Part shown: piece after piece, positions 30,157 through 33,668 of the stretch
How positions within the stretch are numbered: the first letter of the stretch is position 1
Layout of the letters: every line of letters starts with the position of its first letter
Origin: Synechococcaceae cyanobacterium SM2_3_1
GTDB taxonomy: Bacteria; Cyanobacteriota; Cyanobacteriia; Thermostichales; Thermostichaceae
Reading direction: 5' to 3'
Length of the DNA stretch: 39,237 nt
Assembly (NCBI GenBank): GCA_012030715.1
Contig: JAAUUJ010000018.1
Span: 1-39,237, forward strand
The notes under the pieces: model-generated
Seen by the model: only the letters and a program-made list of their open reading frames with translations
Databases searched by the model: none
Told to the model about the DNA's origin: nothing
Program-made: the position numbers and the translations under genes

Positions 30157-32169
30157 ATGAATCCACCGGATGATCTGCCAACCCTTCTGGGGGTGGATAT
30201 AGGGGGGACGTTTACCGATCTGGTGGTGTTGCAGGGACAACGCCTGCTCACCGCCAAGGTCCTGTCCACGCGTTTGCCCGATGAAGGGGTCTTTACGGCC
30301 CTGGAGCAGGTGCGGATTCAGGATGACGCGGTGTCCGCATTTAATCATGGGATGACGGTGGCTACCAATGCCCTTCTGGAACGCAAAGGCGTGCCAACTC
30401 TGCTGCTGATCACGGCGGGCTTTCGGGATCTACTGGCCATTGGACGCCAAAACCGTCCGGCTCTTTATGCTCTGAGTCAACCCAAACCCGATCCCGTCAT
30501 CCCTGGCAGCCACTGTCTGGGAGTTAAAGAACGCTGTGGTCCCCAGGGGATCCTGGAACCCCTGACCGAGGTAGAGGTGGAGCGGGTGGTGCAGGAGGTG
30601 ACCAGATATCGATACACAGCAGACATTCAGGCGGTGGCTGTTGGTTTTTTGTTTGCCTTTCTCTATCCTCAGCATGAGCAGCAGATGGGATCGGCCCTGC
30701 GCTCCCGTTTTCCCGATCTGCATGTCTCTCTTTCCTCGCAAGTGGCTCCAGAATTGCGGGAATATGAGCGCATCACGACCACAGCGATCGATGCTTACCT
30801 CAGCCCCAGAGTTGCGGTTTATTTGCAGCGGCTAGCCCAGGGGTGCCAACAGCGCCAGATCCCGGTTCCTCAGATCATGCAATCCTCCGGTGGGGTAACC
30901 CCTGTGGAAACGGCGGCGGCTCATGCCTCGATGCTGCTCCTGTCTGGTCCTGCGGGTGGGGTGTATGGAGCCTCGGCGCTGGGGCGGCGGTGTGGGTGCC
31001 TGAATCTGCTCACCCTGGATATGGGAGGCACTAGTACCGATGTGGCCCTGATCCAGGAGGGGCAGCCCCAGGTCACAGCTCAGGCGGAGGTGTGCGGATT
31101 TCCGATTCTCCAGCCCCAAATTGATATTCACACCGTCAGTGCTGGCGGAGGATCCCTGGCCCGTCTGGTGGCAGGTGGGGGTTTAGAGGTGGGTCCGACC
31201 AGTGCTGGTTCTGATCCGGGTCCGGCCTGTTATGGGCGGGGGGGAACCGCTCCCACGGTCACCGATGCCAATCTCTGGTTGGGATATCTGCCGGATGGAG
31301 GGCTGCTGGGGCAGGACGTGCGTTTGCGTCGGGATCTGGCGGAAGCAGCGATTGCGCGTGTGGCTCTTCCCCTGGGCCTCAGCTATCAGGAAACGGCGGT
31401 GGGGATCCGAACCCTGGCAAATCTCCACATGGTGCAGGCGCTGCGGGTGATCAGTGTCGAGCGCGGCCTGGATCCAGCCCACTTCAGTCTCATGGCCTTT
31501 GGGGGAGCAGGGCCGATGCACGCCTGTGATCTGGCCATGGCCCTGGGAATGCAGGAGATCTTGATTCCAGCTGCCTCTGGGGTCTTATCGGCTCTGGGGA
31601 TCGCGGTCTCGGAACGGCGGCGGGATTATCGGCGGGCTCTCCTCCGTCCTCTGACCGCTCTGGTAGAAAGCTGGAATTCTTTACTGGCGCCTCTGGTGCA
31701 GCAGGCCCAAGCGGATCTGAATTCCCCAGTCCTCTCCGCCAGTCTCGATCTGCGCTATCTGGGCCAGTCTTTTGAACTGAACCTGCCTCTCGACGGGGAG
31801 GAGTCTATCGCTGCGGTCCAGGAGCGATTTCAGGGCCTGCATCAGCAGCGCTATGGCTGGTCCGATCCCTCGCGAGGGATTGAGGTGATTCACCTGCGGC
31901 TCCAGGCACAGCAAGCCCAGCCGGATCTTCCCTGGCCCGTTCCTGAAGTGCATGGAGATCCCTGGTGGGGTGAACGACAGGTCTGGATCAAAGATGAGTT
32001 CCGTCCGGTGTCGGTGCTGGATCGCAGGGGGATGTCGGTCGGGATGTCGGTCAAGGGTCCTGTCATCATCCTCATGCAGGAGGCGACCGTGGTGATCGAT
32101 ACCCAGTGGCAGGGGAAAATTGATACCTGGGGCACCCTGGTCCTGACCCGCCAGGATGTTGAACTTTAG
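30157..32169 (+). CDS. hydantoinase A / 5-oxoprolinase family protein
   Basis: 670 residues from ATG 30157, preceded by GGGGGTGG. HyuA/OXP-A subunits hydrolyse hydantoins or 5-oxoproline with ATP. ASKHA-type motifs: [15 protein letters not shown] near residue 12, [113 protein letters not shown] and a C-terminal beta domain. The partner subunit HyuB is not adjacent, so either it is encoded elsewhere or this one acts alone. The downstream neighbour speD is unrelated and has its own promoter. Confidence 0.9.
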
Positions 32170-32193
32170 CCATTTCCGAAAAAGATAGGTTTG

Positions 32194-32202
32194 TGACATA
32201 AT
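32194..32202 (+). promoter_or_regulatory. probable extended -10 promoter of speD-speE
   Basis: TGACATAAT: CATAAT matches five of six to TATAAT, with TG one base upstream, the extended -10 form. The -35 region (TTTCCG) is weak, as is common for extended -10 promoters. Transcription would begin near 32209, so both copies of the 24-bp repeat at 32236-32301 would be in the mRNA. Confidence 0.45.
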
Positions 32203-32235
32203 GAGAAGCTCTTGTGCTGCCTTAGTGCTGCGCAT

Positions 32236-32301
32236 CTATCTGGCCAATTAGGGGATAGGAAGATGATGCATGCGTCACTATCTGGCCAATTAGGGGATAG
32301 G
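32236..32301 (+). repeat. direct 24-bp repeat, two copies, in the speD leader
   Basis: Identical copies at 32236-32259 and 32278-32301, 42 bp apart start to start (14 codons, so the frame is kept). Each reads CTATCTGGCCAATT followed by AGGGGATAGG. The ends CTATC and GATAG are inverted, so each copy can form a small hairpin that includes the ribosome-site-like GGGGATAGG. Copy 1 ends 3 nt before ATG 32263; copy 2 lies 12-18 nt before GTG 32314 and ATG 32320. A 7-mer, GTGCTGC, is also repeated at 32214 and 32225. Confidence 0.85.
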
Positions 32302-32739
32302 TCATTAGCTCCGGTGGGAATGCACTGCATTCTTGAGCTATACGACTGCCCGGCCAACCTCCTTAACGATCTGGAATATATTCAGCAAACGTTGCGCACC
32401 GCTGCTGAAAAAGCCTGTTCAACGTTACTGGGGGAAGTCGCTCACCAGTTCAACCCCCATGGGGTTACAGCCCTGGCGCTGTTGGCGGAGTCCCATATTT
32501 CTGTGCACACCTGGCCCGAGCTAGGGTATGTGGCTGCCGATGTATTTACCTGTGGCACCCACACTCAGCCAGAAACTGCCTGTGTCTTTATGATTACGGC
32601 CTTTCAGGCGGAACACCACTGTCTCTACAGCCTGCCGCGTCGCCCGGAGGGATCAGCTGCTGAATCTGCAGACTCGACTCCATCGGTGACAACTGCTGAT
32701 GCAGAAGGGGAACCCATGATGATTGGCAGAGGCAGCTAG
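32263..32739 (+). CDS. speD: S-adenosylmethionine decarboxylase proenzyme
   Basis: 158 residues from ATG 32263 (ATG 32266, GTG 32314 and ATG 32320 are alternatives; the catalytic domain begins at VGMHCILELYDCPANLLND). The enzyme makes decarboxylated SAM, the aminopropyl donor for polyamines. The self-cleavage site is LAESHISVHTWPELGYVAADVFTCG: the Ser of ESH becomes the pyruvoyl group, and His and Cys complete the active site. The C-terminal 30 residues are a low-complexity Ser/Ala/Glu tail. With the 32263 start, the second copy of the leader repeat is translated as SLSGQLGDRS. speE follows after 2 bp, so the two form an operon. Confidence 0.9.
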   Translation: MMHASLSGQLGDRSLAPVGMHCILELYDCPANLLNDLEYIQQTLRTAAEKACSTLLGEVAHQFNPHGVTALALLAESHISVHTWPELGYVAADVFTCGTHTQPETACVFMITAFQAEHHCLYSLPRRPEGSAAESADSTPSVTTADAEGEPMMIGRGS

Positions 32740-32741
32740 GC

Positions 32742-33668
32742 ATGGCCGAGAGCTCAGAACCGTTCCTCTGGCTGCGGGAGCGACATACCGATGGGGATCA
32801 ATATCTGCATGGGGTGAGCCGGATCCTGGCCCAAACTCGCACTGCCTGGCAGGAGATGCTCATCATCGAAACCCCAGTTTACGGCAAAGGTCTGATCCTG
32901 GATGGCCGCTGGCAGTCTTCCCTGGGGGATGAGTACCTTTACCATGAAGCGCTTGTGCATCCGGCCCTGATCTGTCATGGTTCTCCCCGTCGTGTCCTGG
33001 TTCTGGGTGGAGCCGAGGGAGCCAGTGTGCGGGAAGTGTTGCGCTGGACCACTGTAGAACAGGTGGTGATGGTGGATATCGATGCGGAAGTGGTGCAACA
33101 GTGCCGCCAGCATCTACCGGAAATGCATCAGGGCGCCTTTGCCGATCCGCGCACCGAGGTGGTGACCGTGGATGCTCAGGAGTATCTGAGTAACACCACA
33201 ACGGAGTGGGATGTAATCATCGCTGATCTCAGCGATCCTGTGGAGTCGGGTCCGGCCTTTCCCCTCTTCACCCAGGAGTTTTACCAACGGGTTTTCCAGG
33301 TGCTGTCACCCCAGGGATATTTTGTCCTGCAGGCGGGCTCTGTGGCTCCTCCTGAGATCGATATGCATGCACGGACCCTGAAGACGCTGGCATCTGTCTT
33401 TGCCCATGTGCTCTCCTATGTTACCTGGGCTCCCACCTATGGGGTGCCTCTGGGGCTAGCGCTGGCCTCCTCGCAGGCGATTCCCACCCGTCCCGATCCA
33501 GTGCAGGTGGATCAGGTGCTGGCCACCCAAACCCAGGGAACTCTAAGATTCATCGATGGCGTCACCCTGCTGGGATTACTGCAAACCCCCAAGCCGATTC
33601 GCACCGCGCTGGCTGCTGAAGAGAGCATCTATACTCTGGCCGATCCACCCCAAATTGCCCCTGGCTAA
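32742..33668 (+). CDS. speE: aminopropyltransferase (spermidine/thermospermine synthase family)
   Basis: 308 residues. Transfers the aminopropyl group from decarboxylated SAM to a polyamine. The N-terminal beta domain ends with WQEMLIIETPVYGKGLILDG and DEYLYHEALVHPALI; the Rossmann part has VLVLGGAEGASVREVLRW near residue 88, VVMVDIDAEVVQQC, and IIADLSDPVESGPAFPLFTQEFY. GGAEG and DPVESGP resemble the plant ACL5/thermospermine synthase group (GGGEG, DPVEGGP) more than ordinary spermidine synthases (GGGDGG, DPxGPA). The product could therefore be thermospermine or spermine-like; this is inference from motifs. Second gene of the speD-speE operon. Confidence 0.87.
   Translation: MAESSEPFLWLRERHTDGDQYLHGVSRILAQTRTAWQEMLIIETPVYGKGLILDGRWQSSLGDEYLYHEALVHPALICHGSPRRVLVLGGAEGASVREVLRWTTVEQVVMVDIDAEVVQQCRQHLPEMHQGAFADPRTEVVTVDAQEYLSNTTTEWDVIIADLSDPVESGPAFPLFTQEFYQRVFQVLSPQGYFVLQAGSVAPPEIDMHARTLKTLASVFAHVLSYVTWAPTYGVPLGLALASSQAIPTRPDPVQVDQVLATQTQGTLRFIDGVTLLGLLQTPKPIRTALAAEESIYTLADPPQIAPG

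Follow-up and report, generated by a model that had tools for sequence, protein, structure and literature searches.

The speD locus and its duplicated leader unit

The window, that is the whole stretch of 39,237 nt analysed here, carries speD for S-adenosylmethionine decarboxylase and, beginning 2 nt past its end, speE for spermidine synthase (Table 1); judging from this arrangement the two genes are probably co-transcribed. The speE gene also lies downstream in most of the element-bearing genomes described below, while no recognisable speE was found within the flank examined in G015, G017 and G063. S-adenosylmethionine is assumed to be the substrate of this SpeD, and the adjacent speE speaks in favour of it; ornithine or arginine decarboxylases also occur among SpeD homologues (PMC10407285). 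A different architecture is present in family f13 (L030, L031, L033), in which SpeD is fused to a spermidine-synthase-like domain, giving proteins of ~430 aa without the N-terminal tail. Upstream of the locus, near the 3' end of a hydantoinase-like gene, there is also a perfect 12-bp tandem duplication, GGGATGTCGGTC, at 32029-32052.

Table 1. Positions of genes and sequence features at the speD locus of the window.
Feature	Position	Strand	Remarks
-10 box CATAAT, possible	32197..32202	+	weak, recognised by eye; would imply a leader of ~55 nt
speD-leader unit, copy 1 (CTATCTGGCCAATTAGGGGATAGG, 24 nt)	32236..32259	+	5' untranslated, holds the Shine-Dalgarno AGGGG
Proposed start-codon hairpin, copy 1 x copy 2	32236..32300	+	from pair counts and folding
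Shine-Dalgarno AGGGG	32250..32254	+	within copy 1
speD start codon ATG, most likely	32263..32265	+	sits in the loop of the proposed hairpin
speD, S-adenosylmethionine decarboxylase	32263..32739	+	AdoMet_dc, Pfam PF02675, E=1.3e-37
speD-leader unit, copy 2 (CTATCTGGCCAATTAGGGGATAGG, 24 nt)	32278..32301	+	encodes LSGQLGDR, codons 6-13 counted from ATG 32263
speE, spermidine synthase	32742..33668	+	Pfam PF01564, E=6.3e-42

As the initial annotation had noted, a 24-bp unit is perfectly duplicated at the start of speD, with a start-to-start distance of 42 nt, and both copies begin with CTATC and end in AGGGGATAGG; including its flanks, the repeat extends over 31 nt at 90% identity. When up to 3 of the 24 positions were allowed to mismatch, the 4.44-Mb assembly contained no further copy of the unit, and the idea of an interspersed repeat is ruled out by the speD pair being the sole genomic occurrence. 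The decamer AGGGGATAGG by itself is frequent, occurring 21 times in the genome; what counts is therefore the complete unit and the fact that it is duplicated. The duplication is not a matter of chance, since the unit has no other genomic copy and 16 genomes from five families show the pair where speD begins.

By comparison of sequences, speD most likely starts at the ATG right after copy 1, either at 32263 or at 32266, the latter being a second in-frame ATG that aligns with the start of the relatives' speD. A scan for promoter and terminator consensus sequences gave nothing, with no full sigma-70 site present. Possible starts had been reported after both copies, and ATG 32263, GTG 32314 and ATG 32320 are indeed present; however, the two that follow copy 2 are unique to this genome, the relatives having ATA, ATC, ACC, GTT and others at that position. 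Since these starts are not conserved and copy 2 is coding sequence within SpeD, the suggested choice between two SpeD N-termini is not supported. The AdoMet_dc domain begins at residue 21, which places copy 2 within an N-terminal tail, outside the SpeD fold; residues 1-15 are predicted to be disordered (pLDDT < 50), and the tail is absent from solved bacterial SpeD structures.

Conservation among cyanobacteria and selection on nucleotides

A pattern search of 390 cyanobacterial genomes found near-copies of the unit in 17, nearly always paired at speD. The lone match in G145 lies away from its speD and was taken as chance, while G132, G165 and G255 had one pattern match each at speD, where reading of the sequence shows both copies. 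Both copies are therefore located at the speD start in 16 of the 390 genomes, belonging to five families: all eight genomes in the family of this genome, then G025, G015, G158 and G165, as well as G082, G241, G255 and G132. Comparison with the leaders of relatives, the check suggested at the outset, shows the duplication to be conserved. In three further genomes (G017, G063 and G313) copy 2 is kept and copy 1 is degraded. Searching with a sequence model built on this region recovered 19 genomes at E<=5.3e-17, with the next match at 2e-4 and none between. A wider scan, covering 84,980 species, looked for pairs of TGGCCAR...GGGG cores separated by 12-42 nt and gave 79 stretches; the matches at speD are exclusively cyanobacterial, including Synechococcus sp. 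M44_DOE_062, Petrachloros mirabilis, Thermosynechococcus sp. WC_1 and filamentous cyanobacterium CCP2, and the remaining ones look like chance or low-complexity repeats.

In the SpeD tree, the element bearers are located on several long branches, and their proteins share 54-65% identity with the SpeD of this genome, indicating that the element did not spread recently. From these sequence comparisons, the element is conserved across several deep cyanobacterial branches. Relatives without it, among them G018, G037 and the picocyanobacteria, have unrelated SpeD N-termini. In the picocyanobacterial SpeD (L191-L207, L209, L228, L229), another N-terminal segment, LHPNPGW, is conserved; its codons, CATCC.AACCC.GGATGG or variants of this, make up a small hairpin sequence that may be a comparable element.

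The position of the copies relative to the start of speD is similar among the bearers. The GGGG of copy 1 ends 4-10 nt 5' of the ATG in nearly all relatives, G002 with 14 nt being an exception, and most of them have the beginning of copy 2 at codon 5. The start-to-start spacing ranges from 36 to 42 nt and is not always a multiple of three, so that several families (G025, G015, G165, G241) have copy 1 out of frame with speD; in G132 and G082 it is in the speD frame yet contains a stop, while in this genome and in the genus of G001 and G003-G007 both copies share one frame.

Among the eight distinct sequences with intact copies, from five families, the noncoding copy 1 has 18 of 23 positions invariant, and the regions flanking the copies are not conserved. 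Within copy 2, the LSGQLGD residues are conserved in nearly all members, and the codons TCT, GGC and GGG are never swapped for synonyms. Same-codon identity at matching residues reaches 0.88 in the LSGQLGD window across eleven lineages, while 117 other SpeD windows average 0.39 (sd 0.08) and do not exceed 0.55. This freezing of synonymous codons points to selection acting on the nucleotides, and together these patterns support an element over the speD ribosome site that acts at the nucleotide level. The SpeD N-terminus thus appears to be constrained by a nucleotide-level function, and its conserved tail would be misread as a protein motif.

Probable pairing between the two copies

Blocks of the unit are complementary to one another or to themselves (CUAUC to GAUAG, UGGCCA to itself, and CCAAUU to AAUUGG), and consequently copy 1 and copy 2 can fold together into a single long hairpin with bulges. 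In a first register, this consists of an outer CUAUC/GAUAG stem (copy 1 positions 1-5 with copy 2 positions 23-19), a middle UGGCCA/UGGCCA stem and an inner GAUAG/CUAUC stem (copy 1 positions 19-23 with copy 2 positions 5-1), with two equal 7-nt bulges, AUUAGGG, and the ATG in the loop. A second, competing register, CCAAUU/AAUUGG, has similar support and is the minimum-energy fold in G025, G015, G158, G241 and G132. Positions A12 and U13 are invariant though unpaired in one register, which is expected for a protein site too.

Pairs were counted in ungapped alignments of copy 1 plus copy 2, because a MAFFT alignment displaced copy 1 of G017 and G063 by one column. In the eight intact sequences, 95% of the copy 1 x copy 2 cells are paired and there are 3 double-sided changes, which are three cells in two pairs, two of them within one genus. 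One is in G015, where U-A replaces C-G at the outer end of the hairpin; the A-U pair at position 3 becomes U-A or U-G in G082 and G241, where the copy 2 change is also Asp to Glu. The covariation score of the eight sequences was reached by 5 of 500 shuffles, which ignore relatedness, and by none of the slid controls; with G165 and G017 added, no shuffle of 500 reached the score, these two rows not being cleanly homologous in copy 1. Most hairpin pairs never vary and are therefore uninformative on pairing.

Folding energies point in the same direction. All 18 genomes have a segment energy lower than the mean of dinucleotide shuffles, although individually the differences are modest; in this window the segment has a z of -1.2 (p 0.12), and the z-score of the whole leader is not significant by itself. 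The weakest folding corresponds to G165, with an interrupted copy 1, and G255, with a deletion in copy 2. In G017 and G063, copy 1 has become GUCCUACUGAUUGGGGAUAA and the repeat is lost, yet it still pairs with copy 2 over ~22 bp (MFE about -18 kcal/mol). Taking pair counts and folding models together, pairing of the copies in the speD mRNA is likely.

Other foldings were found at some of these loci. Copy 2 can also pair, through CCAAUUGGGGG, with a downstream GCUCCCGUUGG (codons A-P-V-G), forming a hairpin that is strong in G165, G025 and G082 and weak or absent in most of the family of this genome; L163, L168 and L176 were noted for it. Additionally, a GCUGUGC-loop-GCAUAGC type of hairpin lies ~10-40 nt upstream of copy 1 in L162, L164, L165, L167, L170 and L175, close to the probable 5' end; within the genus it shows what look like compensatory changes, and the segment z is about -2 to -3.

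Some natural variants alter the element. In G165 (L176), copy 1 is split between TCTGGCCAATTA and AGGGGATAG by a transposon-like insert of 95 nt, which has inverted ends (ATAGCG/CGCTAT) and contains a long palindrome; the Shine-Dalgarno is retained and most of the copy-copy pairing is gone, so relaxed control of SpeD would be expected there. In G255 (L184), copy 2 is one G short (TTGGGGAT), so that the frame opened by the upstream ATG no longer continues through speD; this may reflect an assembly error, a pseudogene or frameshifting. Short, well bounded and with exact coordinates in 16 genomes, the element is made directly testable by such variants (the insertion, the degraded copy, the losses).

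Proposed control of translation initiation and related systems

Given its overlap with the Shine-Dalgarno, its position on both sides of the ATG and its selection at the nucleotide level, the element is most economically read as a control of initiation. Here it is proposed, with about even confidence from sequence comparison and folding models, that it is a cis-acting RNA element of the speD mRNA whose two copies pair over the start codon and control translation initiation. The copies flanking the start codon would pair antiparallel into a bulged hairpin whose loop contains the ATG, the Shine-Dalgarno being located in the inner stem or in a 7-nt bulge. The closed hairpin, whose existence in cells and blocking of the ribosome we infer, would hinder the 30S subunit, and the open one would allow translation of speD and probably also of the co-transcribed speE. 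In other organisms, polyamine synthesis is under tight feedback control. The signal is guessed to be the end product spermidine, leading to feedback repression, which is plausible from the identity of the genes and from precedent: spermidine stabilises bulged double-stranded RNA over the Shine-Dalgarno/AUG in the hairpins of the E. coli polyamine modulon (PMC7177335), and speD-type genes are governed by a spermidine riboswitch of different build (PMC10853860). The broader idea, that this is an undescribed pseudo-twofold-symmetric RNA device dating from early cyanobacterial diversification, with self-complementary copies that clamp the start codon shut on polyamines and a downstream half read as the disordered tail, is tentative and rather doubtful as a whole.

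Among the alternatives, the one that survives best, though it is considered unlikely, is that the copies are tandem sites for an RNA-binding protein, possibly dimeric, or for a ligand reading UCUGGCCAAUNRGGGGA, the first covering the Shine-Dalgarno and the second lying shortly after the start of the gene; bound sites would block the start codon, as with two-site repressors like CsrA, and intramolecular pairing would be secondary. Conservation of the primary sequence of both copies far past the needs of a hairpin, unpaired bases included, fits such sites, as does the location of the copies at both edges of the initiation footprint with a spacing that varies; however, at paired positions the two copies change in a correlated way, copy 1 of G017 and G063 retains the complementarity and not the site, and no candidate protein has emerged.

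Two further explanations are both improbable. Tandem, palindrome-containing direct repeats close to the likely transcription start, as are typical of operators, could be DNA sites for a transcription factor just downstream of the promoter, but a centre spacing of 36-42 bp shifts the helical phase, the position is fixed relative to the Shine-Dalgarno and the ATG, with copy 2 mostly at codon 5, and further sites are lacking, both in this genome at up to 3 mismatches and, as exact matches, in seven relatives. Similarly, LSGQLGDR could be a functional N-terminal motif, either a regulatory tail or a nascent-chain arrest sequence, with copy 1 as the relic of a duplicated start, consistent with the conserved residues and with the single frame shared by the copies in this genome and in the genus of G001 and G003-G007. 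Against it, the codons are frozen beyond what the residues would need, copy 1 is off-frame or stop-interrupted in other families yet equally conserved, and the tail is predicted to be disordered and is missing from solved structures; selection on the peptide only is rejected by the frozen codons together with the noncoding copy.

That the copies serve as two identical seed sites for an antisense RNA acting in trans, which a pair of identical targets over the ribosome site would suit, is very improbable, given that no perfect or single recurring near-perfect complement was found elsewhere in this genome and seven relatives and that the 2-mismatch matches differ from genome to genome. The least probable is the original idea that each copy folds on itself through CTATC-GATAG and masks its own ribosome site as a two-step switch or to yield two N-termini: the isolated 24-mer can form a 6+2 bp hairpin of -6.1 kcal/mol, but its probability in full leaders is mostly near zero (at most 0.17), its pairs are lost in G082, G241, G132, G002, G158 and G015, several of the eight distinct sequences being affected with zero compensation, and no start is conserved after copy 2. 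On the evolutionary evidence, pairing between the copies fits better than self-hairpins.

The start-codon hairpin proposed here was compared with known systems. A search of Rfam 15 with 31900-32500 gave no match up to E=5, SAM-I included, nor did the leaders of seven relatives at gathering scores, and in the literature searched there was no account of translational control of speD or of a speD-leader element in cyanobacteria, in agreement with the earlier remark that no such element had been described. The spermidine riboswitch, a variant of SAM-I, controls genes of the speD/speE/speB type in cis, with spermidine as the repressing signal, by means of a large SAM-I-type aptamer that acted through transcription termination in the reported tests; cyanobacteria are unmentioned in the main text (PMC10853860). 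The speD element resembles it in its cis position at speD/speE-type genes and differs from it in having neither a SAM-I match nor a P1-P4 aptamer at the leader, which, with a likely length of ~55 nt, is too short for a SAM-I aptamer.

Guanidine-II (mini-ykkC) riboswitches consist of two small, tandem, near-identical interacting units upstream of or over the ribosome site, with ACGR-loop hairpins that both precede the start. In the speD element, by contrast, one unit is coding, the pairing proposed is copy-to-copy and no Rfam match was found. In eukaryotes, AMD1 is controlled at translation by the peptide of an upstream ORF, MAGDIS. An arrest peptide in the C-tail of AMD1 is also described (PMC13025110). 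Both cases involve translational cis-control of an S-adenosylmethionine decarboxylase gene; however, that of AMD1 is eukaryotic and peptide-based, whereas in the speD element there is no conserved upstream peptide or reading frame, the frames of copy 1 differing or carrying stops across families, and selection falls on nucleotides.

In the mRNAs of the E. coli polyamine modulon (oppA, rmf and others), spermidine changes a bulged Shine-Dalgarno/AUG hairpin and thereby initiation, and an excess represses; no conserved duplicated unit is described for them and speD is not listed (PMC7177335). A bulged hairpin over the Shine-Dalgarno and the AUG is predicted for the speD mRNA as well, with partial support from compensatory changes, while the speD element is distinguished by a strictly conserved paired repeat that extends into the coding region.
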